Shown here piece after piece: positions 1,310 through 23,149 of a DNA stretch of 64,000 bases (position 1 is the first letter of the stretch; each line of letters begins with the position of its first letter). Below the pieces are notes generated by a model, which saw nothing but the letters and a program-made list of their open reading frames with translations, did no database searches and was not told the origin of the DNA. The stretch comes from a virus. The stretch is taken from IMG/VR virus record IMGVR_UViG_3300042691_006355, positions 1-64,000 of that record; one strand, 5' to 3'. Made by a program: the position numbers and the translations under genes.

Positions 1310-4300
1310 ATGGCTGACATTAGTAGAACATTTCAAAAAGGAGTCATGAATCAAGACCTCGATGAGAGGTTATTGCCTAATGGTACGTATATATCAGCAG
1401 AAAATGTAACTGTAAATAGTTACGCATCTGGTGATGTTGGTGCTATTCAGAATGCATATGGAAACTCGTTAAAGGGTAATATATCTTCAGCTGTAAATGT
1501 TCAAGTAATATCAAATCCAATTGTTATTGGTGCTGTTGCATACGAGCCAAAAGGATTAATATATTGGCTTGTAACAACTGATCAATTTGATGGTATCTTT
1601 GAATACAACATTCAAAGTGGTCAAACAACAAGAGTATTACAATGCTCTAAGCCAAGTCCAGGAAGTCCTCTTAACTTCAACTCTAATTATATTGTTACTG
1701 GTATAAATTATTTAGAGGGACAAGACGGAAACAATTACTTATTTTGGACAGATAACTATAATGCTCCAAGAAGAATAAATATTAATAGATGCAAGGGATA
1801 TACTGCTGATGATCCGTCAATTGCTGATGATATTAGCGTTATAATGGCTCCTCCATTAAACGCTCCATACATATCAATGACTCAAAGCAATAGCCCAGAC
1901 TCTACAAACTTGAAAGAAAAGTTTGTATACTTCAGCTATAGATACAAGTACGTAGACAATGAGTATAGCTCAATGTCGCCATTCTCAGCAGTTGGATTTG
2001 AAGCTGGGGCTTTTGCTATAGACTATGAAACTGGAGACAACCTTGGCATGGTGAATAGAAAAAACTTAATAGATATTCACTTTGAAACTGGAAATGAATT
2101 TGTAAAAGAGATACAACTTCTAGTTAGAGATACTAGAAGCTTAAATGTGATGGTAATTGAAAGCTTTGATAAAGACAAGTTGTCTATTCAAGACAATACT
2201 TCATACTCATTTACATTTAGAAATAACAAGATATACACCACACTATCAAACGAACAGGTAACTAGATTGTTTGATAATGTTCCGCTAAAGGCATTAGGAC
2301 AAGATATTATTGGCAACAGATTGATATACGGAAACTACCTTCAGTTTAGAAATATAACAAATGCAAACGAGGTTGACATAAACATTAACTTTGAGGTTAA
2401 ATATACATCTCAAACAATTACAGATGATAAGCCTAAAAGATCATTCAGAAGTGATAGAGACTATGAGGTAGGAATAGTTTATACCGATAAGTACGGAAGA
2501 ATGACTACAGTATTAACACCTGCATTAAGCAATGCTGGTAATCAATTAAGCAACTCTGTTTATATTCCACCATCAGAATCTGATAAAGCAAACAGCTTAC
2601 AGGTTGAGATTAAGCATGAACCGCCATCATGGGCTACAAACTATAGACTTGTATTAAAACAGAACAGAAAAGAGTACTATAATATATTTCCAAGACTTTA
2701 TTTTAATCAAGGTTTATTTGTTTATTTCTTAATAAATGAAACAGACAGAGATAAATTCTCAGTTGGTGATTATATAATAATAAAAAGAGGTGGAAATGGG
2801 CCTACTTATTCTAATAAACAATTTAAAATATTAGAACTTGAAGTTAAAAATCAATCATTTGTACCTAATGCTCCTGCTGGATTATACTTTAAAATAAAAA
2901 TAGAATCGAATGATTTGTCTTATTTACCTCAGAATCAAACTCAAAATATTGTAACTACAAATCAAGGTAGTAATTCATTTCAAATAGCGCATGGTCAGGA
3001 TTTTTCTGTTACTAGACCTGTTTTAGTAAATGGACAATCAATACCACCAAGTTCGGCATATCTTAATCCAGTAAACTCATATATATCTAAACCATTTTTT
3101 TATGGTTCATTATCTTCAAATTCTAATGCTATAGCTACATCGTGGGTTGGATTATTTAATGTTGGTTCAGCAACAATACAGAATTATAATTCCAGATATT
3201 GGGCAAATTCTAATGGAAGAGATTATAGGTATACAATAGAGATACAGTCTGGAAATAGGTTTAGATATACTACTGATTTATATGGTGTTAGTAACTGGAT
3301 TGAAAGTAATTTGCCTATAAATGTTGGATCAGTTAACTTAATAAAGTTTCCGTCTGGTGTGACTGGTAATGCTCCTGGAGGAGCATCAAACATTGCATTT
3401 GCTATAAAGTGGACATCAAATCAATTAACTGTAGGTGATAGATTTAAAATAAGTTGTAGATCTGAAAATGGAGATAATTATTTTTCTGGCATAGCAAATA
3501 GTAATGGATTACTAGTTAATGGATATGATGATAATGGTGGATTTGCTATTGTCAATGGAAATTATAATGGACCTATATATGCTGGAGCAAATATATCAAT
3601 AACAATAAATCAAGACATTAATAACTCAAATGTATATACATCTACTCAATTATTTACATCTCAGCAAACATATAGTAATATAGAGGAATGGTTTGTTGAG
3701 TCTGGTGCATTTGATTTATTTATTCAAAAAAATTCTTCTGGAGTAGATGTTAAATCTAAAGGGGTTTGGTTTAGAAATACACCTGGATCAACTCAACTAG
3801 GATCTGTTCCATCAAGTTACAGTAGCGTTCAGTATTATAGTCCAAATGGATATCCTTATACAAATTGGGTATTTAATTCATATAATGGTGTAAATACAAA
3901 AATGTTTTTGAAAGGATTTGGAATGGGGAATAATGGTCAAAACACTATTTCAGTAACTTTAAAAATAGATCAAATTGTACCTAGCAAAGCACCTATACTA
4001 GAAACTGTTCCATTAGACACTGAAACTGAAATATTTCATGAACTATCAAGAACTTATCCAATTAAAAATGGTAAACATATATCAAGATGGTTTTTTACTG
4101 GTAGATCAAATGGTCCATTTAGTAGCACAAGATTAACTCAATCAACTAAAGAATGGCCACATTATTTTAGTGTTGGAGATACTGTGTACATAAATACAAA
4201 TGGTGTATTACCTGCTACAGCACACACAATAGTTAATATATCAAATAGATATTCTATAGATGTTACTCCATCTATGTCTACTTCTCCATCTTTCCCTGGT

Positions 4301-5374
4301 TCTGTATCTTATACGACATATGAACAAGACCAAACATCAGTTACAAATGGAGCCAAGATACAAATTAACTATCCAAACTATCCAAATAGTGACTATAACT
4401 CGTTTACTTATAATACTGGATTAGAAACATACAGAATAAAGGATGCGTTTAATGCTCCAACAATGCAATATAGCCCAAGAGTTACAACAGTTATAGAGGA
4501 TTATGAGGAGGAATATAAGTTTGCATCATTGACATATAGTGGTGTTTTTCAAGCTTCTACATCATTAAATAGATTAAACGAGTTCAATCTGTCTTTAGCT
4601 AATTTTAAGAATTTAGACAAGAGATATGGAAGTGTTCAAAAACTAAAAGCTAGGGACACTGATCTTCTTGTTTTACATCAAGATAAGATTACATCAGTTC
4701 TTTATGGTAAGAACTTGTTGTATGATGCGGTAGGTGGAAGCCAAGTAGCATCAATACCAGAAGTTTTAGGTAATCAGATAGCATATCCAGGTGAATTCGG
4801 TATTAGCGACAACCCAGAAAGTTTTGTTACATGGGGCGATGTGTGTTACTTTGCAGATGAAAAAAGAGGATCCGTATTAAAACTCATAGGAAATGAGGTT
4901 ATCCCTATATCTACACAAGGAATGGGATCGTTTTGGATTGATACAATGAAAGATCCAAACAATGTTAATAGTTTTAAATTTGGTGGTTTTGACCCATATA
5001 ACGGAACGTATGTGATTAGTATATCAGAAAGACAAAAACAAAGCTGTCAATTAAATATAAGTCCAACAATAAGAAGCGTTTCATCTAGTCCATCTAATGG
5101 TCCAGTATTTATGTTTTCAGTAGACACATTGTCTCCATCATGGACAATATCTATAGTTGACAATGGATTTGGAACTAACTGGGTTAACTGTCAAACATTT
5201 AGTGGTTCCTATTCACAATTTGTTTATGCTTCTTATTCTGTTAATATTTCTGGAGCACCTAGAAGCGTTATATTTAGAGTTACTTATTGTGGAAGCACTT
5301 TATTTAAAGATTTTATTTTAACACAAGGTGTTTTAAATTCACCTACACTTGTAATACCAATTGTAAACGGATAA
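1310..5374 (+). CDS. Large virion stabilisation / tail hub-like protein
   Basis: 1354 residues. The start (ISRTFQKGVMNQDLDERLLPNGTY, then SGDVGAIQNAYGN) matches the typical opening of the phage stabilisation-protein group in Bacteroidota phages; members close the portal channel or form the tail hub. Residues about 1-440 and 1040-1290 are ordinary in composition. Residues about 455-1010 (roughly 2680-4350) are Asn/Ser/Tyr-rich beta-type sequence encoded by clearly more AT-rich DNA and look like an inserted variable domain. The C-terminal 100 residues (ISPTIRSVSSSPSNGP onward) look like a small Ig-like surface domain. Stop and next start are separated by 3 nt. The family call is recognition from memory; the insert's role in host binding is inference. 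Confidence 0.6.
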   Translation: MADISRTFQKGVMNQDLDERLLPNGTYISAENVTVNSYASGDVGAIQNAYGNSLKGNISSAVNVQVISNPIVIGAVAYEPKGLIYWLVTTDQFDGIFEYNIQSGQTTRVLQCSKPSPGSPLNFNSNYIVTGINYLEGQDGNNYLFWTDNYNAPRRININRCKGYTADDPSIADDISVIMAPPLNAPYISMTQSNSPDSTNLKEKFVYFSYRYKYVDNEYSSMSPFSAVGFEAGAFAIDYETGDNLGMVNRKNLIDIHFETGNEFVKEIQLLVRDTRSLNVMVIESFDKDKLSIQDNTSYSFTFRNNKIYTTLSNEQVTRLFDNVPLKALGQDIIGNRLIYGNYLQFRNITNANEVDININFEVKYTSQTITDDKPKRSFRSDRDYEVGIVYTDKYGRMTTVLTPALSNAGNQLSNSVYIPPSESDKANSLQVEIKHEPPSWATNYRLVLKQNRKEYYNIFPRLYFNQGLFVYFLINETDRDKFSVGDYIIIKRGGNGPTYSNKQFKILELEVKNQSFVPNAPAGLYFKIKIESNDLSYLPQNQTQNIVTTNQGSNSFQIAHGQDFSVTRPVLVNGQSIPPSSAYLNPVNSYISKPFFYGSLSSNSNAIATSWVGLFNVGSATIQNYNSRYWANSNGRDYRYTIEIQSGNRFRYTTDLYGVSNWIESNLPINVGSVNLIKFPSGVTGNAPGGASNIAFAIKWTSNQLTVGDRFKISCRSENGDNYFSGIANSNGLLVNGYDDNGGFAIVNGNYNGPIYAGANISITINQDINNSNVYTSTQLFTSQQTYSNIEEWFVESGAFDLFIQKNSSGVDVKSKGVWFRNTPGSTQLGSVPSSYSSVQYYSPNGYPYTNWVFNSYNGVNTKMFLKGFGMGNNGQNTISVTLKIDQIVPSKAPILETVPLDTETEIFHELSRTYPIKNGKHISRWFFTGRSNGPFSSTRLTQSTKEWPHYFSVGDTVYINTNGVLPATAHTIVNISNRYSIDVTPSMSTSPSFPGSVSYTTYEQDQTSVTNGAKIQINYPNYPNSDYNSFTYNTGLETYRIKDAFNAPTMQYSPRVTTVIEDYEEEYKFASLTYSGVFQASTSLNRLNEFNLSLANFKNLDKRYGSVQKLKARDTDLLVLHQDKITSVLYGKNLLYDAVGGSQVASIPEVLGNQIAYPGEFGISDNPESFVTWGDVCYFADEKRGSVLKLIGNEVIPISTQGMGSFWIDTMKDPNNVNSFKFGGFDPYNGTYVISISERQKQSCQLNISPTIRSVSSSPSNGPVFMFSVDTLSPSWTISIVDNGFGTNWVNCQTFSGSYSQFVYASYSVNISGAPRSVIFRVTYCGSTLFKDFILTQGVLNSPTLVIPIVNG

Positions 5375-5377
5375 ATT

Positions 5378-8221
5378 ATGATGACAAAACAATCTTTTGA
5401 GTATACTGGTAGTAATGTCTATGATATAGATAATGTTGTTATAAGTAATAATAACATTGCTATATTTGATCAATTAACTGGCGTTGGTGGTGTAGATTAT
5501 ATGCCTTATAATGGTTCCACTGTAACTGTTAAGGCAGGAGATAATACTGGTTCATATCAAGAGTTAGCACCTACATTAAACAATAAGCTTTACTATTATG
5601 TATCAGATGTCTTATATGGTCCAAATGACAAGGATGTAATAAAGGCAGACTCTATTGAGATTCCAGTAACTTATTCTTCTGGAGAGTTTACTGGTATATT
5701 TGTATTTAATAACCCAAATGATTTTCCTTATTTATACTTATTTTGGGATTATCAAGACACTATTGACGGATCTACTAACATATCTTATATTGGAGCTACA
5801 GATGAAAGAATTATTAACTGGACTATTGGAGCTGGTATTGGTGTCGCTGGCATTAATTATAATGCCATTGATACTCCTACGAGATTTCAAATAAAATTGA
5901 ATGGATCTATTGTAGCAGACTCTGGATATGTTGGTCTTAACTCACTTACAAATTATATTGATTTAATAACGGCAGGTGTAAATCCAGATGATATAAAACT
6001 TGTATCTCCATATGACGGACTAGTAAATAATGGTAATGGTAGCCTAAGATTTAAAAAGCTAGACTCAACTATTGATACAGCTGAAATAATTGTATCTTCA
6101 CCATTGTCAACATCTACTTGGATTATAAATAAGGTTGACCCATATTTAACACCTTTTTATATTGACATCACAGATGGTGATCTTACAAATGTTTGTTCTC
6201 AATGTCCAGATATTTTATATTATCACGATGGTTTTAACTTGACACCACAATATGGAGACACTATATATAATGATCCATACGGATCTACAACTTATAATGG
6301 AAACGATGCGTATCACATGATTGATATATTGATGTGTATGGTTCCTAGTCCTATAGATAAGTCATATGTTTTGGTAAATGAAAATGGATTTGTTAGCTTA
6401 ATTGATACGTGTAATTGTCCAGAAAGTGCTGTCCCAGTAATAACGCAGGGAGATATATATATAACTGTAAATGAGGACATAAGTATACCAATATCTGCTT
6501 TAGGTAATCCAACTTCGTTTAATTTACTTGGGTCTTGTTACAGCTATATTCTTAATGGTGGACAAAAATCTAGTTTATTAAGCTATACAGATTGCAGTGG
6601 AAACAGTAGATATGTAACTATAGGATCTAATCAAAATTTAAATATATGTTCATCAACTGTTCCAGTTATTGTGAATGGTGACGGTTCATTCAATTTACTT
6701 GGTCAGTGCAATAATATATCTATTGCTCCAGGATTATCAATAGATTTAAATGGTGTTTTATCTGGTTCAGCACTAGAGCTCAGAGATTTTTCATTTGATA
6801 TAACCGCTACTAATTGTTTTGGTACAAGTGACCCGTATACCATTAATGTATTTGTATCTGAAAGTGGACTTATACCATTCTCAGTAGATATAGAGCAGTA
6901 TAAAGAGACATCGGCTGATTGTTGTAGCATAACTCCAACTTTTTCTATAATGTATTCAGACGGAAAAAATAATGTGCCTACACTGAGAAACAGAATATAT
7001 AAAGATCAAAACGCAGAGGAGTACTTTAATGGAGGTGATTTCTGGTATTTTATAGATAAGTCTGACTATGTTATAAAGATAGATAACAACGGATATGTGG
7101 TAGACTATTCAGTTTGTGCAGGAAGCACTACAACGACAAGTACAACAAGCACAACCACAATACCAGTAATTGGTACATACTACAACGCAATATCTTGCAT
7201 TGATAACACTACTACCGTTACATTGCTAGACATAACAGGAGCTCCAGTATCAATTGGTGACGTAGTAAAAACTCAAGACGGAAACTGCTGGACTATAGAC
7301 TCAACATCTGCTGGTGGATTCCCATACTTTTATATGGAAAATCCTGTAGTTTTTTATGCTGACTGTGCAACATGTACGGGTACTACAACAACTACAACTA
7401 GCACTACAACTACTACGTTAGCTCCTATAGTTTCTTTTAATGCAGATCTCTCTGTACAATACAGTAGCGATTATCTGGCATGTGTTTATGGATCTGCTGG
7501 ATCTATGCTATACTTCTTTGGATACTATTCAATGCCACTCATAGGTGACATAGTATACTCAGATGCTCTTTGCACAACTCCGTTCAATGGCGAGTTTTAC
7601 TGGTATTATGCCACTGATAGTCTATATAACTATGCAATACAAGTAGCAAATACTGGGCAGGTTCTTCATGTTAACCCTTGTAGTATTGTAACAACTACTA
7701 CAACCACTACGACAATACCTACTTACTACTACGAAGCAGAGATATGCAGTGATCCTGGTATGACTTATTTAATTGCAGATCAAAACTTAGTTGAGTTTGA
7801 TCCTGGAACAATTGTCAAGTGTGACGATGGTATTTGCTACGAGATATTAGCATCAGCAACTCCAGGAACTCCAGATGCTAACATATTGTTTTTGTTTGAT
7901 AATTGTTCAAGTTGCGTTGGTACTACAACAACAACTACAACAACTACAACTACTACAACAACAACTACAACTACTACAACAACAACTACGGTAAAACCAA
8001 CATACGCTGTTCTATTAAACTTCGGCTCAATTACAGAGGTGTGTTCATCTCCAATTGTTACGTTTTATATAGATGGCCCAATTGGTGTACCTGGAAATAA
8101 TATTTACGATAGCATATTTATGTCTGATCTAGCTCCTGCAAACTACTATAAGTTGTCTACAAGTGGAATTGCATACGAGTGGGATGGTATAGAATGGACT
8201 GGAAATACTAAAAATTGTTAA
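5378..8221 (+). CDS. Cysteine-rich tail-fibre / receptor-binding candidate with polythreonine linkers
   Basis: 947 residues. The first 500 or so residues are Asn/Thr/Ser-rich beta-type sequence with no catalytic motif that I recognise. From residue 570 the protein becomes a chain of modules of about 65-95 residues, each with paired cysteines (for example FYADCATC near 665, DNCSSC near 845), separated by threonine-rich linkers encoded around 7128-7160, 7380-7420, 7689-7712 and 7922-7990. The last linker is an unbroken run of 23 threonines. A modular chain on stiff linkers at the end of the tail gene set suits an extended fibre that contacts the host. The stop overlaps the next start (TAATG). 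Fibre function is inferred from architecture and position. Confidence 0.6.
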   Translation: MMTKQSFEYTGSNVYDIDNVVISNNNIAIFDQLTGVGGVDYMPYNGSTVTVKAGDNTGSYQELAPTLNNKLYYYVSDVLYGPNDKDVIKADSIEIPVTYSSGEFTGIFVFNNPNDFPYLYLFWDYQDTIDGSTNISYIGATDERIINWTIGAGIGVAGINYNAIDTPTRFQIKLNGSIVADSGYVGLNSLTNYIDLITAGVNPDDIKLVSPYDGLVNNGNGSLRFKKLDSTIDTAEIIVSSPLSTSTWIINKVDPYLTPFYIDITDGDLTNVCSQCPDILYYHDGFNLTPQYGDTIYNDPYGSTTYNGNDAYHMIDILMCMVPSPIDKSYVLVNENGFVSLIDTCNCPESAVPVITQGDIYITVNEDISIPISALGNPTSFNLLGSCYSYILNGGQKSSLLSYTDCSGNSRYVTIGSNQNLNICSSTVPVIVNGDGSFNLLGQCNNISIAPGLSIDLNGVLSGSALELRDFSFDITATNCFGTSDPYTINVFVSESGLIPFSVDIEQYKETSADCCSITPTFSIMYSDGKNNVPTLRNRIYKDQNAEEYFNGGDFWYFIDKSDYVIKIDNNGYVVDYSVCAGSTTTTSTTSTTTIPVIGTYYNAISCIDNTTTVTLLDITGAPVSIGDVVKTQDGNCWTIDSTSAGGFPYFYMENPVVFYADCATCTGTTTTTTSTTTTTLAPIVSFNADLSVQYSSDYLACVYGSAGSMLYFFGYYSMPLIGDIVYSDALCTTPFNGEFYWYYATDSLYNYAIQVANTGQVLHVNPCSIVTTTTTTTTIPTYYYEAEICSDPGMTYLIADQNLVEFDPGTIVKCDDGICYEILASATPGTPDANILFLFDNCSSCVGTTTTTTTTTTTTTTTTTTTTTTTVKPTYAVLLNFGSITEVCSSPIVTFYIDGPIGVPGNNIYDSIFMSDLAPANYYKLSTSGIAYEWDGIEWTGNTKNC
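7126..7990 (+). repeat. ACA/ACT trinucleotide tracts encoding threonine linkers
   Basis: Four separate tracts of mixed ACA, ACT and ACG codons (with some AGC/AGT serines) lie at about 7128-7160, 7380-7420, 7689-7712 and 7922-7990, all in frame with the fibre gene. The codons alternate irregularly, so they are imperfect repeats at DNA level but nearly pure at protein level. Such tracts can change length by replication slippage or recombination between copies. Confidence 0.8.
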
Positions 8222-9135
8222 TGAATAAAATTAAATTTCTATCAGCTCAACCAGCGATAGATTATTACGCTTGGCAAATTGAGGTGCAAATTGTGAACCT
8301 CATGTTGACTGGATATGATCCAGAACAGATATATGTTATTGCAGGATATCAAGATGATATACCAGAGTCGTGGTTAAAACTAAAAGAAACGCATTCAAGT
8401 GTTAACTTTTTCTTTTATGAGGATACCCTTGGTGACTGTAAGTATCTTCCTGCAATACAGGCACACATACTAAAGAAGCACTTTAAAGAACATCCAGACA
8501 ATACACCGTACTTCTTTATTGATGCTGACTTTATATTCACTAGATATCTAGACTTTACACCGTACTTAAATGACGACAAGTGGTACTTCTCAGACACTAT
8601 CTCATACATAGGTCATGACTACATAGTCAGCAAGGGAGAAGAGGTCTTAGAGGCTATGTGTGACGTTGTTGGAATATCTAAAGAGCTTGTCAAGTCAAAC
8701 CAAGATAATAGCGGTGGAGCTCAAAAGTTGATGAAGAACCTAACTCATGAGTACTGGGAGATGGTAGAGAAGCACTCATTCGAGCTGTATGACGTCATGA
8801 TGCAGCTACAGCACGTAAGAAATGACGGTAGCAATCATGGAATACAGGCATGGACGGCAAGCATGTGGGCCGAACTTTGGACAGCTTGGAAGTTAGGAAT
8901 TGATGTTGTTGTTCCAAAAGATTTTGACTTCTGTTGGGCTACTTGCAACATTAAAAGATGGGACGATGTATATTTCTTTCATAACGCTGGAGTAATGTCA
9001 GACAAGGACCGCATGTTTCACAAGGCAAAATATATGGACAAATACCCATTTAATTCAAATGAAATAGTGTCAGAACATAAGTGTTCATACAACTACTATA
9101 AGCTATTAAAATCAATAGATAGCTGTTTGGTTTAA
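8221..9135 (+). CDS. Glycosyltransferase-like protein in the tail-fibre cluster
   Basis: 304 residues from the ATG that overlaps the fibre stop codon (TAATG); an in-frame TTG at 8215 would lie inside the previous gene. The N-terminal half has alternating beta strands and helices with IYVIAGYQDD near 40 and YFFIDADFIFTRYLDF near 98-113. The DAD in the latter resembles the metal-binding DxD of GT-A glycosyltransferases. The second half is Trp/Asp-rich (IQAWTASMWAELWTAWKLGIDVVVPKDFDFCW). No signal peptide or membrane segment is visible. Position directly behind a threonine-rich fibre suggests that it could modify that fibre. An alternative is a non-catalytic virion protein with a GT-like fold. 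Confidence 0.5.
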   Translation: MNKIKFLSAQPAIDYYAWQIEVQIVNLMLTGYDPEQIYVIAGYQDDIPESWLKLKETHSSVNFFFYEDTLGDCKYLPAIQAHILKKHFKEHPDNTPYFFIDADFIFTRYLDFTPYLNDDKWYFSDTISYIGHDYIVSKGEEVLEAMCDVVGISKELVKSNQDNSGGAQKLMKNLTHEYWEMVEKHSFELYDVMMQLQHVRNDGSNHGIQAWTASMWAELWTAWKLGIDVVVPKDFDFCWATCNIKRWDDVYFFHNAGVMSDKDRMFHKAKYMDKYPFNSNEIVSEHKCSYNYYKLLKSIDSCLV

Positions 9136-9153: not shown

Positions 9154-9960
9154 ATGTTAGCACCTCTTACTATATCATATTCTGATGACGTTCAAGGATG
9201 GACATCATTCTGGACGTATAAGCCAGACTATATGATATACGCATCAAACAATTTTTATACGTTCAAGAATGGTAATCTATACCTTCATAACGATGAAACT
9301 GCTACAAGAACTGTATACTATCCAAACACACCATTTGGAAATTTACCATTTTGTTCTGTCAGAACAACGTTCAATGACGCTCCGTTAGATGTTAAACTAT
9401 TTAAAACGGTATCACTAGAGAGCACGTCTCCATGGAATGTATACGTATTTACTGATCTTATATCTGGAAATATTGACGATACTTGGTTTGAGTTAAAAGA
9501 AGGTAGCTACTTTGGTCATGTAAGAAGAAACACTAACTTATCTGGAGCTTCATTAATAAACATAGGTCAACTTGACGATTCATTGTCTACTAGAGTACTT
9601 GGAGTAGGTTCAGTATTGAGCACAGGTGCTGGATACATAGAGTTCAATAGCTATCCAAGTCAATCACTTAAGATAACAGACATAGCTTTTCCAGATCAAC
9701 TATATGTTTATAATAGTGGTGGCGCATTAACATTTGTTGGTACTGTATCTAGCGTTGACAACTCATCTCCAAATCCAAAGGTATTTGTTACTGGTGGAGC
9801 AGTTCCAAACGTTGGCGATACCATACTAGCTGTTAAAAACTCAACGGCTGAGTCTTATGGAGCTAGGGGTTACTACATGGACACAACACTTACGTATAAT
9901 AGTGGCGCTCCAGTTGAATTATTCGAGATAGGCTCCACAGTATTCAAAAGTTTTATGTAA
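9154..9960 (+). CDS. Virion surface or fibre-associated protein, unknown
   Basis: 268 residues, beta-rich, opening with SYSDDVQGWTSFWTYKPDYMI. No catalytic motif is recognised. An aromatic-rich N-terminal 150 residues is followed by a Gly/Ser/Val-rich domain (SGGALTFVGTVSSVDNSSPNPKVFVTGG) that reads like a small beta-barrel. It has its own promoter box 4 nt before the ATG and another identical box after its stop, so it appears to be separately expressed within the late block. A tail-spike or baseplate-type role is inferred only from the position between the fibre and the internal virion genes. Confidence 0.5.
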   Translation: MLAPLTISYSDDVQGWTSFWTYKPDYMIYASNNFYTFKNGNLYLHNDETATRTVYYPNTPFGNLPFCSVRTTFNDAPLDVKLFKTVSLESTSPWNVYVFTDLISGNIDDTWFELKEGSYFGHVRRNTNLSGASLINIGQLDDSLSTRVLGVGSVLSTGAGYIEFNSYPSQSLKITDIAFPDQLYVYNSGGALTFVGTVSSVDNSSPNPKVFVTGGAVPNVGDTILAVKNSTAESYGARGYYMDTTLTYNSGAPVELFEIGSTVFKSFM

Positions 9961-12571: not shown

Positions 12572-15500
12572 ATGGAAGAACTAAATTCACAATCATCTTT
12601 TGATAGATTAATAGATAACACAACCAATCCACCAGAAGGTCTTCCTGATGGATTATATACGTATCCAGGTGTTGATGCGTTATATAAAAAAGAGAACGGT
12701 CAGTGGTTTAAAAAAGTTGGTGGTTCTAGCTATATTCAATTAAAAGATGGAAACGTAGCGGAAAGAATCAAGAAGCTAGAGAGCGATGCTGTCGCTGTAC
12801 CAAAAAAAAGGGAGGAAATACAGAAGTTTACGAACATACAAGACTTCGATGTAATTCAACCAGTAGAGCAATATACAGATATATTCGAAAGAAAAGAAAA
12901 TCTACTAGTAAAACCAAAAAAAGAAGAGAAGCCAAAGGACATTAGAATAGTAGATAATGATGGAATAAAAACTTGGCAAGAACAAAAAGAGGTAAAGGTT
13001 CAACAAAAAATTGATCCAAAGACTGGTATTCCAACGGGACCGTCATACTTCGTTAAGTATGAAGACATTACAGATCCTGCTAGAGTATCTAAATTAAACG
13101 AGTCATACAAGGAGGACGCATCAACAAGCAAAGACCAAAAAGTATTTACTGGTTATCCTGGAAAAGAAGGTACAGAATATATAATAAACGAAGACAATCT
13201 ATGGGAAGTAAAGAGACCAGGATCAGATGATTTCTTAGTTATATCTACTCCAGAGTCTGTTACTGCATTAAATAATTACTTTAAACAAAAAGCTGAAATA
13301 TTTGATGACAAAAAGGCTGTTGAGATAAAAAACAAAAATAAAGAAACACTAGACTTAAGGTACAGAATAAATAAGGTAGACAGAAAATTAATTCTAGGAA
13401 CAGAAGAAAATGCACAAGAAGTTCTTGAAAGATTGTTTCCAGAGTATGAGTTTGAACAGTTTGGTATAGGTACTGACAACATAAGAGTTAAAAGTAAGTC
13501 AAATGAAATAACTATATCTCTAGGGTCAAATGAATCAGACGAAAGCGAGGCATTAAGACTAAGAAGTTTCTTAAGAGAAAATGCAGGTGACATAGACGAG
13601 AGCCGATACAAGGCAATAATGCTACAAAGAAAGCTTGACGCTCAAAATAAAAAGTATTATGGTACGTTTGGATTTTCTGGTTTACAGACAGTTCTTGAAA
13701 CTGGTAAACCAAAAGAATTAGGTCTTGAAGAAAAAACAGAAGCGGCAAGAGAGGAGTTCTTAATTGACTTAAGTAGCCAATACAAAGACGCTTACTTAAG
13801 AACAAAAGACAAAAGTGAAAAAGAAAAAAACGCTGCGTTTTCTGTACTTAAACCAAAAGAAGAAGAGATATCAATAATTAATAAATACGCTGATGATGTT
13901 TTAGCTCAGGGTAACATATTAATTAAACAAAAAAAACAAGTAGATACAGATATATCAATATTAGAATCAAAATATAAGAATGGACTTATAAATGAAGATG
14001 AGTATAATCAATCTATTACTGATATAAAAGATAAATTAAAATTAATTAGTGATGAGTCAAATTCATTTCAAAATAATTTAAAGAACGTATCTCTATCTCA
14101 AGATCTTGTAAACAAATCAATTGCAGCAAATCTATTAATTCAAAAGAACAAGGGGTCATTTGTAGGTGGTATTGCATATAGTGCTGTAGATGGTATACTG
14201 TCAATACCTAGAATGGTAGCTATGGCAGACAAAGAGACTAAAGATAAGTGGATTGAAGAAATTGTAGGTGTAGGAACAACTGAAAGTTATGTAAACTCAG
14301 ATGATAGGTGGGATATTACTAAGGCTGCATTTCAGATGTCAAGATCACTATCTGCTATGGCAGTTGGATCTATAGGAGGTACATACGGAGCATACGCATC
14401 ACTATATGCAATGTCATACTACGAGATGAAGGATGAGCTAGATCAACTTGACATATCTGGAGTATCAGAAGGAGACAAGGTGCTGATGTCTGGTGCATAC
14501 GGATTAATTGGTGGAGCACTTGAAAACTTTGGTTTGAGTTATCTTGTAGGTAAATCTCCACTAAAGTCAGCACTATCTAACGCAATACTTAAAAATGCAT
14601 TTAGTCAGATACCTAAGAATGCAAGCAAGGAAATGGTAGAGGCTCAAGTAATAAAGAGCACTAAAATGATGATTGCTAAGTATGGTATTACTGCTGCTGG
14701 GTCTTCTTTACTTGAAGGTGGTGTAGAAGGAACGCAGAGACTTGCTCAAATGGGAATACAAGAGGTTTACGATGTAATGAAGGGTTCGGACTACTTTAAT
14801 AATAAATCTGCTTATGAGGTGTTAGGTGACGTAGCATACGAGTCTTACATGGGATTCTTGGGTGGTGGAATTGTGGAGACAGTGCAACAATCTGGAAATG
14901 TATTAAAAGATGGATCTGCTGCGTTTAAAGATAAAAAACAATTAAATCTTTTAATTGATGCGGCAAAGACTATGGGTATAGACAAGGCTTTAGTATCAAA
15001 ATTAAAGTCAGACATACTCAATGGTAATATTAAAAAAGAAGAGGCTGAAAAACAGTTAAATGCATTTAAAGAAATGCAGGGTAAGATAAAATCAATTCCT
15101 GACGACATGTCTGTTGATAATCAAGCCAAAGCACTAGACTTAATACTAGAGAGAGATAGACTTAATAAAGAGATAGAAGGGAAGGACCCTAACTTGGTTA
15201 AACCTCAGTCAGACAGGGTAACCGAGATTAATAATAGTCTGCAAGAATTATCAAAACAAAATGCCGTACAAGAGCCAAGCACAGAGGGCGTTCTTCAACG
15301 CGAACAAGAAGGAGTTGCAGAAACAGGGGGTGAACGTGGAGGAATGGAACAAGTCGTCCAAGGGGAAGAAGTTACCAGAGAAGGTAAAACAAAAGCCGTC
15401 CAAGAAGAAGTAGTAATAGATAAGCCTGTAATTCAATCAAACTCAAAGACAGAGGTTGATAGAGTTAAGTCATTATCAAATGATGCTGAGGATGGTGCAA

Positions 15501-18500
15501 CGTTCAACCTAGACGGAACAAAGTACGAAGGTAAAGGACTCATTGTTCCAGTAGTAAGTAAGAACACTACTGCTGAAGAATTAACTCCAGAAATGATATC
15601 TGACTTTGTCGAAGAGCACAAAGATAAGATTGGAGACAACGAGACTGTAAAGGTTGGAATTTATAAATTCCCAAACAGCAACCAGGTATCTATTGACTTA
15701 AATATACTGGCTCCAGAATCTGCTAGAGAACAAGCAATTGAGTTTGGTAAGAATGCAGACCAAGAGTCATTGTTTGACTTAAGTACATTCGAGAACGTTA
15801 AGACTGGAGGTACTGGACTTAATCCAGTACAGTTTAACAATGAGCAGTTTAGAGAGATATCTAAAGCATTTAAGGAAGGAAGAGTTCCAGATGTATTTGC
15901 GCAACAACCCGTTACTCAAATTGAAGAAGTTACAATAACTCCAGAGACCAGTCAGACTGTTAGTGAGAGAATTAATAAGGAGACAGATACAAAAAGAAAG
16001 AAAGTATTTACTGCCGTTCAGAAAGTATTGTCTGCTATTCCTAATTCAAGAATTATATTGCACGACAACACTGATGCATTTGTTGCTGGTGTTGCTAAGT
16101 CTGCCAATATAACAAATGACCAGGCTATATCTCAAGGTGTTCAAGATAACAGAGGTTCATATGTTAATGGTGACATACATATAAACTTAGAAAAGGCTGG
16201 TGTGTCTACAGTATTTCACGAGGCGTTCCACGACCTGTTGGCAAAGAAAGGACTTGAGTCTGGCGCATTGTTAGAAATGGCAAAAGGTCTTAAGTCAGTT
16301 ATATCTGACAAAGCACTTAAGAAAAGACTTGATAACTTTGTATCTAACTATGAGCAGGGAGAAAGAGCTGAGGAGTATACTACTGAGCTTGGAGCCATCA
16401 TGGCTGAGGCTCAGAGAGAACTATCTACTACAAAGTTCCAGCAGTTTAAAACACTAGTCAATAAGATTGCCAAGAAGCTAGGTCTTCCTGTTGTCTTTTC
16501 TGCTGCATCAACTGCACAAGATGCCGTTGACTTTATGAACTCAATGTCTGGTAAGCTTGGAAGAGGTGAGCAGATTGAGGTTGGTGATGCTATTAAAGTT
16601 GATACAAATGAATTATCTATTAAGGCTGAAAGGATAGGTAATTTTGATGTATCATATTTTGAAGATGCTAATGATTACAAAAAATTAGTAGAAAATGGGA
16701 GTGTAGAAAACAATTATGATATAAATAAAATAGCTGGTGAAACTGTAGCTATACATCAACCAGACAACATGTTTGTTGGAGATTTAAATTATAAAGGCAA
16801 AAATATATTTAAAGGTCTAGGAGGAGTTTTTTATACTTTAATTACTGGAAATGTTTGGGCATCTGGATCTGAAACTTCAGCTAAAAATTTAACTAATTTA
16901 ATAAATAAATCATTAAAAGAATCTACTGATGGTATTGGTAGATTAGTATTAGTTAGAGGGTCTGAGTCTAAAATGATATCATCTACAGAAGGAGTTAAGG
17001 CTGCAATGTCAATAATAGAATTGCTAGTTGATAAAGGATTAATAAATAGATCTGAATTTAGATCATCACTAATTCGTGCTGGTAAAAAATTTAATATTGA
17101 TTTTTCTGGTAAAGATTCATCAGCTGCAATACATAAAGACATTAAAGAAAAATTCATGGATGTTAAAAATTCAACATTCCAAAAAAGAGGAGATTTCTTT
17201 GATGAAGTTATAAATGATTTATCTAAAACTTCAAAAAGTGTATCAGAAAAAGAAAATATTGATAATATACGAAAAGAATTAGGTAGCAAAAGAAAAATAT
17301 CTTTTAGTAAAGATGGTATTAGAGATTCAATAGGTTATATACTAACTGAAAGATTACTTCAAGATTTACCACCTAGTCATGTATATGCTGTAATAGAAGT
17401 TACTGAACCAGTTACATATGAAGAAAGAAAAGGTCATGATAGTTATCCTTGGGTTTTAAAGTCAAAATCTAAACCAAAATTAAAATTATTATCCGACAGG
17501 GGTAATGCCGTTAAAGATGGCGTATTTGAAATGATTGATGGATCTGAAGTTACATTTGGTAAACTTGGACTAGCTCAAAGTGGCATTGGTATTGCAAAAA
17601 TATCTAAACAAAAAACAAAAATTAATCAAATCAAAGCTCAAAAAACAGAACCTGTTGCTGGAAATAAACTATTTAACGAGCCGTTAAAAGATGCCGAGAC
17701 AATAGCAAAGTCATATATGAAGTCTGTAGGAATGGAATATGTTCCTGTAGAAAAGATAACCAAGCTAGATGAAAATATTTCAAAAAGAATATCCGATGCG
17801 TATGACAAAATGAAAAACGATCCTAACGATCCACAAGTCAAAAAAGCATACGAGGCTATGGCGAAGGAGACGTTAGATCAGTATGACCAGATACTAGAAA
17901 AAGGATATAATGTTGAGATAAATAATAACGAACCATACTCTTCTTCTGAGGACATGATAAATGATCTTAGAGACAATAAGAGAATGAAAATATTCTCTAC
18001 TGAGTCTGGTTTTGGTGATGAGCCAATAACTGAAGAACAGAGAAAAGAAAATCCATTGTTAAGAGACTCTGGTAGAAAAGATATCAACGGAGAAACTTTA
18101 TTGGTTAATGATGTGTTCAGATTTGTACATGACTTTTTTGGTCATGCAAAATTAGGCAATAGCTTTGGTCCAATAGGAGAGGAAAATGCATGGAGAGTTC
18201 ACTCAGAAATGTATTCACCAGAAGCTAGAAAAGCCATGACATCTGAGACAAGAGGGCAGAATAGCTGGGTTAATTTTAGCGGAGTTAATGACGCTGTATT
18301 TAAGAAAAGAGATAAGGCAAGAGAGCTTCGTAAACAAGGTAAGGTAGAAGAGGCAGACAAAATGGTCGGAGAGGTATACGAAGAGATGAAATTTGCCGAT
18401 CAAAAAGTTGGACTACTTCCAGATTTTGCATTTGAGGAAGGAAGACCATCCAAAATAAAAGCACAAATAGTAGGTAAAAATGCTAGACTATCTCAAGATG

Positions 18501-21500
18501 TAAGAGATAATTTACAGATAGCCAGAGAAATGGAAGATAATGGAAAATCTGATAAAGAAATAAGATTTACTACTGGATGGGAAAGAGGTGCTGATAAAAA
18601 ATGGAGATATGAGATAGATGATAATATATTATTTGTAAAGAGTCGTCTTTTAAATGAATTTAAAAAAATAGATCAAAATAATATCAATGAGATAAATATA
18701 AATAATGTTATATCAAATGAATTAATAAAGTTATATCCAGAAATTAAAGATGTAAAAATAATTTTTGATCCAGCAATTAAGGTAGGAAATGCTTCATATA
18801 ATTCTTCAACAAAAACAATATCAATATCATATGATCCTAATCTAAATGATTTAGCTGCCTCTCTTTTGCATGAAATTCAACATTCTATACAAGAAATAGA
18901 AGGTTTTGCTGTAGGAACTAGTATTTCGAAAATAACTGATTCATTAGGTGAAAAATTAATAAGTGAAATAGAAAGTGGTAAAGATGCTGTAATTTACAAT
19001 AAACTATATTCTATTCTTTCTGGAATAGATACATCAAACAAAATAAAATTAAAATCTGGTATGTCAAAAATACAGGCATTACTAGATAAATATTCAATAA
19101 AAAAATATGGTAAAACAGTTAATGCATCAGCTATTGATTTATATAAAAAATTTGCTGGAGAAACTGAAGCAAGAAATGTAGAGAATAGAATGAAAATGAC
19201 TCCAGAAGAAAGGAGACAAACTACATTGCAAGAAACAGAAGATGTTGCTAGAGAAGACCAAATAATATTTTTTGAAAATAAAATAAAAGCTCAAAAACAG
19301 TCAAAAGAAGATGCCATTCAAGATGCCAAGGACATACACGAAAAGTCATTCAAAAGATTTAAAGATTCAAAAAGAGCCATAGCAAATGCCGTAAATAATC
19401 TTGAAAAGTCAGACTGGTATAGAGACTCTGACGACACTCAAAGAGAGGAGGCAGTAAGAGAGATCAAAGAATTCTTTGGAGAGAAAATAAAGAAGGCTAC
19501 ATCTGTTGCCAAGGTAATGGGCAAGACCAAGCAGACTGCCTTTGTGTCTGACCTTGCTGCGGCAATTCGCGACCAAGTTAAGTTACAGGCACGATCATCA
19601 AGAGAGACAGCTAAAGATATCAACGATAGACGTAAGGCCCTTGGAGAGTCTATAAAGCAGGTTGTAAAGAGCTACAAAGGAAAGATAACAGAGAAACAAT
19701 TGAACGCTATAAATAGAAGAATAGCAAGCGTTAATCTGTTTAACCAGGAAATGGTTGATAGAGTAGTTGACTACGTGAACAAGGTGATGAGCAATGCAGA
19801 GTACGCTGGAAAGGTAAACAATGCATTTGCAGAAAGAAGAGCGATCAGAAGAATGATGAAGTCTGGAAACATGACAGAGACTGTCGCTGTTGCCAGAGAG
19901 TTTGTTCAGATCGATCCGTCAATGGTGGATGACATAGACACGTATCTTGAGATGGCCGCTCAAATTAGAGGGGCAGTAAAATCATCAAAACGTGTAAAAG
20001 ACTCAGTATCGTTAAAGCAGATTGTGAACTTTGGAGAGGCATACGAATACATCAAACCAACCCTTGAAAGACAGGAAGAGATGATGAAAAATATGAGACT
20101 TGCCGAGTATAACGATCTAGTTGACTCTGGTGTTATATCTAAAGATATGACGCTTAAAGAAATCAATAAGATAATAAATACTATTAGAGATAATGCAGAC
20201 GCAGAGATAAAGGCAGATGAAGAAGCTGCTGCTATGGATTTTCTAAAAGATAAACTAGGATACATTAAAACTTTGCTTCGTATATCTCCATTAAAGGGAT
20301 ACAATCCAGTAACTGGAGAACAGATTGAGATAAGCGAAAGACATTCAAATATGATTAATAATATAATCAAATCAAATCTAGACGATTTGTCTTTAAAGCA
20401 AATGATAGAGATGGTTGATTCTTTAAATAATTTCTATGAGAATGGAGCAGTTGGAGGACTTGAAGCGGCATACGAGACAATACTAGGAGAACAAAATGCC
20501 AAGTCTTTAGAAAAGAAAGGTATTGTTGCAAGACCACTAAAGATGTACTTCAATAAAAAACTTGGTCAAATATTTGGAACCGAACTTACATCTCTTAACG
20601 AACTGTTTAACAGAATGTTTGTTGGGGCTAAGAAAGGTATAGAAGTAATGGCTAAGAGTGGTTTTTCAGATATTATTATTGGAGCCAATAAAGCTAGAAG
20701 ACAGATAAAAGAAATACAGGATAGATACGTTAAAGAATTCGAAAAAACTAAAGACTTCTTCCAGATTGAAAATGTTTATGAGAGAGGTGCATTTGCGTTC
20801 TTAAGTAGAAACTTAATTGGAAATGATGCAGAAGTAAAATCAGAGTTTAATAGACGTGTAGACCTGTTACTTGAAAGTGTTGAGGCATTGAAAAATGGAA
20901 CGTCCAAAGAGCAAGAAATGGCTAAAATATACGAGAAGGTATTAGATAAGATGGATGTAAAGTCTAGAGATCTTGATACAATTGCTGGTAAAATGGAGAG
21001 TTTTAATAAAGAAGCAACGCAATGGTGGATAAACGAATGGTCCAAGCACTACTCAGACCTATCAGACGTGTCAAGATCAGTATACAACACAATACTAGGA
21101 AAGGATATAAACTATACCCCAGACAGATACAAGTCAACAACAGAAGGATCAAAATTAGGTATAGACGATAACATAGTAGAAAGAAACTCGGCATTCTTAA
21201 TCAACACAGATTCTATAACAGATACTAACGAGTCTGGTGTTATGATTGCATCAGTTAGACCTAAAGTCCTACCAAAAGGAAGGTACGTAAGCCTTGACTT
21301 TGATATGAATAATGTTGACTCACTTACAGGTGCGCTGGTAGATATAAACACTGCTGGAGCAATTAGAAGGTTAGATTCATTCTTTAAGTCTAAGTCATTT
21401 AAAGCAATTGTACCAACTATTGAAGATAGAAAGATACTTACAGAAAGAGTAAACAAGTATATCAGAAGATCTAAAAACAAACTGTCTGTTCCTAGCGATG

Positions 21501-23149
21501 TGTTTAGAAACATTGACAACGCACTGAATACTGTATCATCAGTAGGAACAGCGTTAGGTTTAGGTGGCGTTTTACAGTCGGTTAAACAGACCGTATCAGT
21601 TGCTATAAGCACAGCAATACAAACTGGAACAAGCTTTAAAATATACGCTGGTGAAGAATTTAATAATTGGTTAAATACAACTGGAGCCTCTGTAACTAAC
21701 AGAGGACAGGAGTCATTAACAGCTATTGAGAGTACCAATAAAAAATTAAAATCATTTAACGGAACATTTGACAAGGCTATTGACACGTACAAGAACCTGA
21801 CTCAGTGGCAACTAAAATTGTTTCTATCTAGACCAGATGTATTTGTTGCTAGAGCAGCGTTTAAGTCTTACTATGAGCAATACTTAAAGAGCAATGGGTA
21901 TGACGTATCTAAAATAAATTGGTCAACATGGAACGAAACAATTAAAAAAGAAGGTCTCAAAGAATTGAATGATGCCGCTGTTATATATGCAGACACAATG
22001 GTTTCAAGACAGCAAAACGTATCTGATGAAAGACTGGCTGGTGAACTTCTTGCATCTGAAGACTCAGCTAGAAAATTGATTAGAAAAGCTTTGTTACCTT
22101 TTGCATCGTTCAGTATCAACCAAAGAGCTAGACTTGTTGCTGACATTAACGCACTATTCTTAAACTGGAATAACATATCTCCAGAAGATAAGGCAATTGC
22201 AATAAAATCAATTGCTGGTACAACAGCAGAGCAAGGAGTGTTCCAAATGATAAACTTTGGAATTGGTATGGCACTTTACTCAATTGCTCAGTCAATGGCA
22301 GGTAATGATGACGATGACGAAGAATGGAAAAAAAGAATGCTTAACGCAACAAAATATCCATTGAGGTCACTTCTTGCTGATATGACATCACCTAACCCAT
22401 TGGCAGATGATGCAGTAATATTTGGTGCAGATGAGTTGTTGGCTATGTTCGGATCTCCAAGCGAAGGTGAGATAAAGCAAGCAATAAATGATGAGAAAAA
22501 ACTAAGAGAGATGCTAGGAAAAGAAATGACTGAATCTCAGATAAATAAATTTAAGGAGCAATACATAAAAGATAACACGTATCAACTTACTTATAACTTT
22601 ACAAATAGCGAGGAAGGTAAGTATGGAATGTTCTCAATTGCTGCTGATCAGTATTTAAAATTAGCAGAAAACTCTGAAATGGCAACTAATGGTACATTTA
22701 CAGATGACTACATGGGCAACAAGACAACCAAGTACCTAACAGATAAAGACAAGTCACTAGCTAAGGCTGTGTTTTATGGACTAGAGGTTCCGTATACAAC
22801 TGGTGCTGGAGTTAAAGAGATGGGTCAAGTTGCAAACAAGACATACTCAATAATTAAAAAGAGAGCTCTAACTGAAAATCAATATGATACTTACAGGCAG
22901 TTTAAAAAAGAATTCAAGAGAGAGCCTCAAGATTGGGAAATTAAAATGATTAAATCAACAAATTCATCAAATAAAGCCATAAATGAATTAGGATTCATAC
23001 AATATATGGGAGGATTAAGTCCAAAACAAGGAGAAGAATACTTAAAAGTATTTAAGAAATTTGGAGAAAATGGACTAGATGAAGACGACTATAAAATGAT
23101 TGTTAAAAATAAATCAGCAGACTATATAATTAAGAAAGCCTTAAAATAA
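12572..23149 (+). CDS. Giant polyvalent internal virion (ejection) protein with two HExxH motifs
   Basis: 3525 residues, the largest gene. Visible parts in order: a charged N-terminus; a Gly/Ala-rich hydrophobic region at about 525-770 that could form a membrane channel; a HEAFH zinc-protease motif at 1216-1220; a domain at about 1345-1690 in AT-rich DNA; a phage domain around 1840-1960 with FVHDFFGHAK and ETRGQNSWVNF; an LPD23-like domain with HEIQH at 2100-2104; long coiled-coil stretches at about 2210-2700; and a hydrophobic segment near 3215-3240 before an acidic stretch. Such chains of polyvalent-protein domains are known in phage ejection proteins and mobile elements, where they are injected to protect or remodel. 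The last codons overlap the convergent phosphoesterase gene by 9 bp. Which domains are catalytically active cannot be judged here. Confidence 0.7.
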   Translation: MEELNSQSSFDRLIDNTTNPPEGLPDGLYTYPGVDALYKKENGQWFKKVGGSSYIQLKDGNVAERIKKLESDAVAVPKKREEIQKFTNIQDFDVIQPVEQYTDIFERKENLLVKPKKEEKPKDIRIVDNDGIKTWQEQKEVKVQQKIDPKTGIPTGPSYFVKYEDITDPARVSKLNESYKEDASTSKDQKVFTGYPGKEGTEYIINEDNLWEVKRPGSDDFLVISTPESVTALNNYFKQKAEIFDDKKAVEIKNKNKETLDLRYRINKVDRKLILGTEENAQEVLERLFPEYEFEQFGIGTDNIRVKSKSNEITISLGSNESDESEALRLRSFLRENAGDIDESRYKAIMLQRKLDAQNKKYYGTFGFSGLQTVLETGKPKELGLEEKTEAAREEFLIDLSSQYKDAYLRTKDKSEKEKNAAFSVLKPKEEEISIINKYADDVLAQGNILIKQKKQVDTDISILESKYKNGLINEDEYNQSITDIKDKLKLISDESNSFQNNLKNVSLSQDLVNKSIAANLLIQKNKGSFVGGIAYSAVDGILSIPRMVAMADKETKDKWIEEIVGVGTTESYVNSDDRWDITKAAFQMSRSLSAMAVGSIGGTYGAYASLYAMSYYEMKDELDQLDISGVSEGDKVLMSGAYGLIGGALENFGLSYLVGKSPLKSALSNAILKNAFSQIPKNASKEMVEAQVIKSTKMMIAKYGITAAGSSLLEGGVEGTQRLAQMGIQEVYDVMKGSDYFNNKSAYEVLGDVAYESYMGFLGGGIVETVQQSGNVLKDGSAAFKDKKQLNLLIDAAKTMGIDKALVSKLKSDILNGNIKKEEAEKQLNAFKEMQGKIKSIPDDMSVDNQAKALDLILERDRLNKEIEGKDPNLVKPQSDRVTEINNSLQELSKQNAVQEPSTEGVLQREQEGVAETGGERGGMEQVVQGEEVTREGKTKAVQEEVVIDKPVIQSNSKTEVDRVKSLSNDAEDGATFNLDGTKYEGKGLIVPVVSKNTTAEELTPEMISDFVEEHKDKIGDNETVKVGIYKFPNSNQVSIDLNILAPESAREQAIEFGKNADQESLFDLSTFENVKTGGTGLNPVQFNNEQFREISKAFKEGRVPDVFAQQPVTQIEEVTITPETSQTVSERINKETDTKRKKVFTAVQKVLSAIPNSRIILHDNTDAFVAGVAKSANITNDQAISQGVQDNRGSYVNGDIHINLEKAGVSTVFHEAFHDLLAKKGLESGALLEMAKGLKSVISDKALKKRLDNFVSNYEQGERAEEYTTELGAIMAEAQRELSTTKFQQFKTLVNKIAKKLGLPVVFSAASTAQDAVDFMNSMSGKLGRGEQIEVGDAIKVDTNELSIKAERIGNFDVSYFEDANDYKKLVENGSVENNYDINKIAGETVAIHQPDNMFVGDLNYKGKNIFKGLGGVFYTLITGNVWASGSETSAKNLTNLINKSLKESTDGIGRLVLVRGSESKMISSTEGVKAAMSIIELLVDKGLINRSEFRSSLIRAGKKFNIDFSGKDSSAAIHKDIKEKFMDVKNSTFQKRGDFFDEVINDLSKTSKSVSEKENIDNIRKELGSKRKISFSKDGIRDSIGYILTERLLQDLPPSHVYAVIEVTEPVTYEERKGHDSYPWVLKSKSKPKLKLLSDRGNAVKDGVFEMIDGSEVTFGKLGLAQSGIGIAKISKQKTKINQIKAQKTEPVAGNKLFNEPLKDAETIAKSYMKSVGMEYVPVEKITKLDENISKRISDAYDKMKNDPNDPQVKKAYEAMAKETLDQYDQILEKGYNVEINNNEPYSSSEDMINDLRDNKRMKIFSTESGFGDEPITEEQRKENPLLRDSGRKDINGETLLVNDVFRFVHDFFGHAKLGNSFGPIGEENAWRVHSEMYSPEARKAMTSETRGQNSWVNFSGVNDAVFKKRDKARELRKQGKVEEADKMVGEVYEEMKFADQKVGLLPDFAFEEGRPSKIKAQIVGKNARLSQDVRDNLQIAREMEDNGKSDKEIRFTTGWERGADKKWRYEIDDNILFVKSRLLNEFKKIDQNNINEININNVISNELIKLYPEIKDVKIIFDPAIKVGNASYNSSTKTISISYDPNLNDLAASLLHEIQHSIQEIEGFAVGTSISKITDSLGEKLISEIESGKDAVIYNKLYSILSGIDTSNKIKLKSGMSKIQALLDKYSIKKYGKTVNASAIDLYKKFAGETEARNVENRMKMTPEERRQTTLQETEDVAREDQIIFFENKIKAQKQSKEDAIQDAKDIHEKSFKRFKDSKRAIANAVNNLEKSDWYRDSDDTQREEAVREIKEFFGEKIKKATSVAKVMGKTKQTAFVSDLAAAIRDQVKLQARSSRETAKDINDRRKALGESIKQVVKSYKGKITEKQLNAINRRIASVNLFNQEMVDRVVDYVNKVMSNAEYAGKVNNAFAERRAIRRMMKSGNMTETVAVAREFVQIDPSMVDDIDTYLEMAAQIRGAVKSSKRVKDSVSLKQIVNFGEAYEYIKPTLERQEEMMKNMRLAEYNDLVDSGVISKDMTLKEINKIINTIRDNADAEIKADEEAAAMDFLKDKLGYIKTLLRISPLKGYNPVTGEQIEISERHSNMINNIIKSNLDDLSLKQMIEMVDSLNNFYENGAVGGLEAAYETILGEQNAKSLEKKGIVARPLKMYFNKKLGQIFGTELTSLNELFNRMFVGAKKGIEVMAKSGFSDIIIGANKARRQIKEIQDRYVKEFEKTKDFFQIENVYERGAFAFLSRNLIGNDAEVKSEFNRRVDLLLESVEALKNGTSKEQEMAKIYEKVLDKMDVKSRDLDTIAGKMESFNKEATQWWINEWSKHYSDLSDVSRSVYNTILGKDINYTPDRYKSTTEGSKLGIDDNIVERNSAFLINTDSITDTNESGVMIASVRPKVLPKGRYVSLDFDMNNVDSLTGALVDINTAGAIRRLDSFFKSKSFKAIVPTIEDRKILTERVNKYIRRSKNKLSVPSDVFRNIDNALNTVSSVGTALGLGGVLQSVKQTVSVAISTAIQTGTSFKIYAGEEFNNWLNTTGASVTNRGQESLTAIESTNKKLKSFNGTFDKAIDTYKNLTQWQLKLFLSRPDVFVARAAFKSYYEQYLKSNGYDVSKINWSTWNETIKKEGLKELNDAAVIYADTMVSRQQNVSDERLAGELLASEDSARKLIRKALLPFASFSINQRARLVADINALFLNWNNISPEDKAIAIKSIAGTTAEQGVFQMINFGIGMALYSIAQSMAGNDDDDEEWKKRMLNATKYPLRSLLADMTSPNPLADDAVIFGADELLAMFGSPSEGEIKQAINDEKKLREMLGKEMTESQINKFKEQYIKDNTYQLTYNFTNSEEGKYGMFSIAADQYLKLAENSEMATNGTFTDDYMGNKTTKYLTDKDKSLAKAVFYGLEVPYTTGAGVKEMGQVANKTYSIIKKRALTENQYDTYRQFKKEFKREPQDWEIKMIKSTNSSNKAINELGFIQYMGGLSPKQGEEYLKVFKKFGENGLDEDDYKMIVKNKSADYIIKKALK

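Follow-up and report, generated by a model that had tools for sequence, protein, structure and literature searches.

According to a passage in PMC12363180, which cites Freeman et al. 2023 (Cell Host Microbe), the mycobacteriophages Che8, Corndog and Myrna encode enzymes that glycosylate their own virions. We analysed a 64,000-nucleotide stretch (the window; coordinates refer to it and to its plus strand unless stated otherwise), part of the 64,267-base IMG/VR virus record IMGVR_UViG_3300042691_006355, in which a gene for a fibre-like virion protein with poly-Thr linkers (5378..8221) is followed by a gene for a predicted GT-A-fold glycosyltransferase (8221..9135). The resemblance lies in phage glycosyltransferases that modify capsid and tail-tube proteins of the phage encoding them, an activity shown by experiment in the mycobacteriophages and predicted here. 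The two systems differ in several respects. The Che8 glycosyltransferases gp108-110 match the GT2/GT25 families, and the profile of the window enzyme family scored against them with an E value of 0.26 or worse. Their genes lie at a distance from those for virion proteins, unlike the window enzyme gene beside its fibre gene, and the Che8 capsid and tail-tube proteins contain no Thr/Ser run longer than 2, unlike the poly-Thr-tagged virion proteins described below. By sequence comparison, the window enzyme family has no detectable relation to the mycobacteriophage virion glycosyltransferases tested.

Mucin-type O-glycosylation offers a further likeness, in that disordered Thr/Ser-only linkers connect folded Cys modules. 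This is an analogy only, and the tracts here are homopolymeric Thr without internal Pro. The 'prophage pi2 protein 34' of lactic acid bacteria phages belongs to the same family as the window enzyme (phrog_4417), which is annotated as having unknown function. The open-licence literature yielded neither a link of phrog_4417 or 'prophage pi2 protein 34' to poly-Thr tags nor an earlier description of the pair, so prior publication is possible. A preliminary description of this locus had proposed that the phage glycosylates its own fibre linkers. The GT-A fold and the near-complete co-occurrence of enzyme and tract support this proposal beyond simple gene adjacency. We conclude that a phage-encoded GT-A enzyme very probably O-glycosylates the poly-Thr(/Ser) tracts of its own virion proteins, with both activity and acceptor predicted. 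It draws on what the analysis shows: the fold of the enzyme, the conservation of its active-site motif, the tracts themselves, and the fact that enzyme and tract are gained and lost together.

Co-occurrence of the enzyme and poly-Thr tracts

The pairing noted at this locus recurred among its relatives, in which the glycosyltransferase-like gene and poly-Thr were nearly always found together. All 36 IMG/VR relatives selected by the enzyme carried a poly-Thr open reading frame (ORF), mostly directly upstream, and the crAss-like members among them carried homologues of the fibre. With tblastn, 72 cultured phages were found to encode the enzyme, and almost all of them infect lactic acid bacteria, enterococci or staphylococci. 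A neighbouring protein contained a poly-Thr tract in every cultured-phage record inspected (12/12), often at its extreme C-terminus; in phage R9.1, the capsid ends in ...GKTTTTTTTSHV and the tail tube in ...ETTTTTTTTTSHV. Cultured phages that have the pair include Lactococcus phage 1706, tagged on its 'major structural protein' orf13, bIL285 (a prophage of the laboratory strain IL1403, in which the enzyme is orf45), Lactobacillus phage iLp84 and Enterococcus phage VPE25. The bacterial genome scan (69 loci) revealed tracts with 38 of 41 single-domain homologues. When distinct single-domain phage-type homologues were counted, leaving out loci found through poly-ACN itself, a poly-Thr protein lay in the same locus in 85 of 88; co-occurrence within 100 bp was 89/95. 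Among enzyme-free loci of at least 8 kb, any such run was present in 9 of 89, most of just 6-7 residues, and at one of these nine (L057) the contig edge ended the fibre before the expected place of the enzyme. Three single-domain homologues lacked poly-Thr: L328 belongs to a GG-leader/C39 cluster, L261 has no visible phage genes, and L263 follows a Pro/Ser-rich repeat protein. We also observed two adjoining enzyme homologues after one Thr/Ser-bearing fibre-like gene in Chitinophaga sp. YR573 (L276, 6057-8029).

Tail-tube homologues were compared by means of a tail-tube profile trimmed of its tail, and 78 were informative. Enzyme and tag were both present in 17 and both absent in 61, with no homologue having the enzyme only (0) or the tag only (0). 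Fisher's p for this table was 1.6e-17, but it takes no account of relatedness, which makes the tree result the more trustworthy one. On the best tree, the trait underwent nine switches, each together with the enzyme, and the four on strongly supported branches were all coupled (4/4). Because the tail-tube tag and the enzyme are neighbours, the capsid gene, which lies some 2.1 kb upstream of the enzyme, was also tested. Both were present in 15 cases and neither in 41, with enzyme only in 1 and tag only in 0. In the lone exception the capsid gene is frame-split and its true end does carry the tag, which corrected the table to 16/0/0/41. The crAss-like relatives found via a ring protein had both enzyme and tract in 10 cases and neither in 15, and one had only a 6-residue run, located in the muzzle. 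In these relatives, enzyme and tract are gained or lost together. The fibre body of L240 is kept, fused to the muzzle, and stops exactly at the expected tract start; this relative lacks the enzyme.

Poly-Thr tags on virion proteins

The association was wider than the enzyme-fibre pairing of the preliminary description. In Firmicutes phages, the tract forms a C-terminal tag on the major capsid (PF05065), connector (PF05135) and tail-tube (PF04630) proteins. Small Thr-rich proteins and fibres also carried tracts. The same C-terminal suffix was reused in 21 of the 38 phages with at least two tagged proteins, against 3.6 expected and a maximum of 9 in 2000 shuffles, and SA, SHV, SHA and TAAV were recurring endings. 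In enzyme-free relatives (L332, L341, L371 and others), the major capsid and tail-tube proteins of one phage often ended in identical or similar short motifs (PEGA/PAGA, VEG, PTV), as if these phages kept a common ending other than poly-Thr.

C-terminal poly-Thr tags without phrog_4417 were seen in L062, L098, L121, L132 and L160. Among ten C-terminally tagged, enzyme-less records, the four longest (64-113 kb; L062, L121, L132 and L160) carry GT2/GT4 glycosyltransferases, and among controls of at least 25 kb, other glycosyltransferases were found in one of seven. This comparison is small, post hoc and confounded by record size, and serves as a lead only.

Predicted fold and active site of the enzyme

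The 304-residue product of 8221..9135, starting from the ATG at 8221, is the proposed poly-Thr O-glycosyltransferase. It matched the phrog_4417 profile over its full length (E value 1.1e-65, residues 5-300 of 304, profile positions 2-292 of 293). The AlphaFold2 model, built from an input alignment of 22 viral sequences, had a predicted local distance difference test (pLDDT) score of 94.8. The GT-A-like layout suggested earlier was borne out by structure prediction and comparison, which gave a GT-A fold and not a non-glycosyltransferase fold. Foldseek and VIA-align placed the enzyme among GT-A glycosyltransferases, with Z values of 13-15 over 215-246 residues; the VIA-align Z was 15.2 for glycogenin (223 residues, 3.5 Å), 14.7 for LgtC, and 14 for UGGT and LARGE1. 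These nearest structural neighbours suggest a retaining mechanism. The model thus indicates a GT-A-fold glycosyltransferase most like the retaining GT8/GT24 type, with its activity predicted.

The DxD-like FIDADF motif reported previously was recovered as FFIDADF, in which D101 and D103 were invariant across 21 diverse homologues. D101-A-D103 (8521..8529), which by its place in the fold and by what is known of the family corresponds to the DxD of GT-A enzymes, is the expected metal/nucleotide-sugar site. The series Q209...H254-N-x-G257...K268 was also invariant or nearly so among homologues at 29-40% identity, and its Q...H-N-x-G...K order resembles that of GT8 active sites. The enzyme shares with glycogenin, LgtC, other GT8 members and UGGT (GT24) a GT-A fold that spans most of its length, the DxD and the H-x-x-G...K order, but the identity is 9-12%. 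A Pfam search of the window enzyme up to an E value of 1 returned nothing, GT8 included, and PF01501 was not among the matches of 21 family members. The enzyme is therefore akin to CAZy GT8 by fold and not assignable to GT8 (PF01501) by sequence. Searching the PDB with the single enzyme sequence gave only weak matches (designed TIM barrels, TALE repeats and similar chains).

Tracts and modules of the fibre protein

The ORF 5378..8221 encodes a 947-residue fibre-like virion protein, the proposed acceptor, with Cys modules linked by poly-Thr in its C-terminal 40%. The translation agreed with the earlier account of four Cys-containing modules joined by Thr tracts, the longest of 23 Thr, and the TAATG stop/start overlap with the enzyme gene was likewise found at 8219..8223. 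Tract 1 (STTTTSTTSTTT, residues 583-594, 12 residues; 7124..7159) precedes module 1 (7160..7381), and tract 2 (TTTTTTSTTTTT, residues 669-680, 12 residues; 7382..7417) precedes module 2 (7418..7690). Tract 3 consists of 8 Thr (residues 772-779; 7691..7714) and is followed by module 3 (7715..7921). Tract 4, the run of 23 Thr (residues 849-871; 7922..7990), leads to the C-terminal module 4 (7991..8218). The module after each tract has 69-91 residues and contains Cys. Modules 1 and 3, both designated type A, are homologous (29% identity, E value 2e-7), and the fibre modules match the phrog_21885 profile.

In the AlphaFold2 model of this region, the modules formed four beta-rich folded blocks. The pLDDT fell below 50 in or around tracts 1, 2 and 4, including the whole of tract 4, and was about 60 at the short tract 3. 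The predicted template modelling (pTM) score was 0.35, so no fixed arrangement of the blocks is predicted. With this whole-region model, no fold match was found in the PDB for the poly-Thr module region (best E value 0.7).

All four Thr codons were used in the fibre tracts, roughly at genome-wide proportions. The aligned linkers remain Thr/Ser although the modules drop to about 41-48% identity, and nearly all substitutions inside the tracts are Ser. Like Thr, Ser carries an aliphatic hydroxyl, and O-glycosyltransferases commonly use it. The interiors of 103 distinct tracts of relatives contained 1434 Thr, 139 Ser, 23 Gly and 2 other residues, a purity that arises partly by construction because the tract definition is biased to Thr/Ser. 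The Ser residues were encoded by both TCN and AGY codons, and the Gly counted in the tracts sits before a tract in the alignment (motif TG-TTTT). A chance run or microsatellite was considered as the origin of the tracts and ruled out, because the codons are mixed and the tracts conserved.

Cellular relatives

The genome scan also gave 28 long homologues, mainly in Chitinophaga, Sphingobacterium, Pedobacter and Mucilaginibacter, and long poly-Thr was rare among them (2/28). Many cellular homologues have GG-leader precursors (TIGR04149-like), C39-peptidase exporters and LanB/LanC-like proteins in their vicinity. Among seven scanned, two (L264 and L277) were fused to a galactosyltransferase-type domain above the Pfam cut-off. 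The location of cellular members in clusters for ribosomally synthesized and post-translationally modified peptides (RiPPs), together with the fusion of some to a second glycosyltransferase, gives the family the appearance of peptide/protein glycosyltransferases. This argues that the acceptors of the family would be peptides, and that poly-Thr was taken up by the phage branch.

These Bacteroidota clusters resemble the phage locus in having a homologous enzyme domain, here next to C39 exporters and to GG-leader peptides whose cores are rich in Thr, Ser and Cys. They differ in that the protein is usually longer, with a second glycosyltransferase domain where detected, and seldom accompanied by long poly-Thr. 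RiPP/lanthipeptide-like clusters with an enzyme homologue, often longer, were noted in L264, L302, L308, L313, L322 and L328, and are candidates for the production of glycosylated peptides with such cores.

Gene neighbourhood

The source virus is a crAss-like phage, judging from the muzzle domains and virion gene order that it has in common with its relatives. A muzzle-type virion protein (1310..5374; phrog_14478, E value 5e-187) is encoded upstream of the fibre gene, and muzzle and fibre are fused in some relatives (L078 and L240). After the enzyme gene, 9154..9960 encodes a crAss muzzle C-terminal domain (PF25729, 31.3 bits against a cut-off of 27) as part of a separate protein. In enzyme-less relatives, its homologue comes after the muzzle gene, sometimes separated from it by a small gene. 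A single probe for sugar-nucleotide genes in the window, PF01370, gave no match, and other donor families were not searched; the sugar donor is therefore assumed to come from the host.

Elsewhere in the window, translations inspected by eye included a 521-residue ORF resembling a GroEL-type chaperonin (43919-45484) and, on the minus strand, an ORF resembling a TerC-family membrane protein (36568-37191). One ORF of 3525 residues (12572-23149) contains two HExxH-like motifs (FHEAFHD and LHEIQHS), and its product is possibly a large virion protein ejected along with the DNA.

Discussion

While virions are being produced in the host cytoplasm, the enzyme would transfer sugar from a host nucleotide-sugar onto the tract hydroxyls of the fibre encoded upstream. 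The Cys-containing beta modules of the fibre would then be strung like beads along four linkers, each densely glycosylated and otherwise disordered. In other phages, the same enzyme family would act likewise on the C-terminal poly-Thr of capsid, connector and tail-tube proteins, and because one family would serve tags on all of these, the tract can be seen as a transplantable glycosylation tag.

Phage glycosyltransferases targeting the host surface or phage DNA are well known, and the fold alone leaves the acceptor unfixed. The window enzyme might act on such a target, for superinfection exclusion or seroconversion in the case of the host surface, with the tracts as unrelated flexible linkers; a gut-phage glycosyltransferase has been proposed to modify the host surface (PMC8008677). 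This seems very unlikely, as it leaves unexplained the 85/88 co-occurrence, the tail-tube and capsid tables (17/0/0/61 and 16/0/0/41) and the joint absence in L240. Moreover, the cellular relatives adjoin peptide precursors, not surface polysaccharide loci. Co-occurrence might also reflect linkage without a functional link, if tract and enzyme formed one mobile cassette. The crAss-like fibre modules and the adjacent enzyme do appear as a block, and the tail-tube tag lies beside the enzyme. However, the tags on capsid and connector track the enzyme even though they are about 2 kb away and separated from it by untagged genes. The tract also sits on unrelated proteins in different phages (fibre, muzzle, capsid, connector, tail tube and small Thr-rich proteins), and tag endings are common to the proteins of one phage, making such a cassette very unlikely. 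A GT-A-fold protein that is catalytically inactive, or that serves Thr-rich tracts as a chaperone or lectin, would be in keeping with an activity that is only predicted and a sequence that matches no characterised glycosyltransferase. Conservation of the DxD, Q, H, G and K positions at 29-40% identity, and the fusion of two cellular relatives to a second glycosyltransferase domain, render this highly improbable.

Several results weigh against glycosylation of the tracts by this enzyme. Pfam and NCBIfam profiles gave no meaningful match for it, nor did a PDB search with the family profile give any; with no sequence match to characterised enzymes, the activity rests on fold and motifs. Of 120 loci that have an uninterrupted run of nine ACN codons, 12 had the enzyme. 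Many poly-Thr phage proteins thus occur without it, indicating that poly-Thr alone does not require the enzyme. In L341, a connector (8462-8776) carries a T10 tag with no enzyme detected and with capsid and tail tube untagged. This phage may be a relic of recent loss, because it is nested in an enzyme-positive group on the tail-tube tree. Only four of the nine switches on that tree fall on well-supported branches, and joint recombination could explain some of the coupling where the tail-tube tag adjoins the enzyme. The capsid result argues against joint recombination as the whole explanation.

We lean towards a broader reading in which homopolymeric Thr is a portable glycosylation tag, so that a cognate phage enzyme would modify any virion protein acquiring it. 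Tagging would have occurred repeatedly, on capsid, connector, tail-tube and fibre proteins in Firmicutes and Bacteroidota phages. The enzyme would share its ancestry with the glycosyltransferases of bacteriocin-like peptides, and tagged phages lacking it would use other glycosyltransferase families to the same end. The preliminary description suggested that glycosylation could stiffen the linkers or hide them from host defences. The likelier benefit would be protease protection of exposed disordered tracts, together with altered surface adhesion or hydration. Antibody evasion is less likely because many of the hosts are environmental bacteria.

Virion glycosylation by phage enzymes has so far been shown, in the open-licence literature, for a few mycobacteriophages. 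The present analysis points to an unrelated and much wider system, which the poly-Thr tag makes readable straight from sequence; the phages concerned infect Bacteroidota, lactic acid bacteria, enterococci, staphylococci and many Bacilli. The hitherto unassigned phrog_4417 gains a testable function, and the modified virion proteins and residues become predictable. Poly-Thr may also serve as a simple acceptor tag for work on bacterial O-glycosylation, and the system would bear on the behaviour of phage particles in mucus and in food fermentations.

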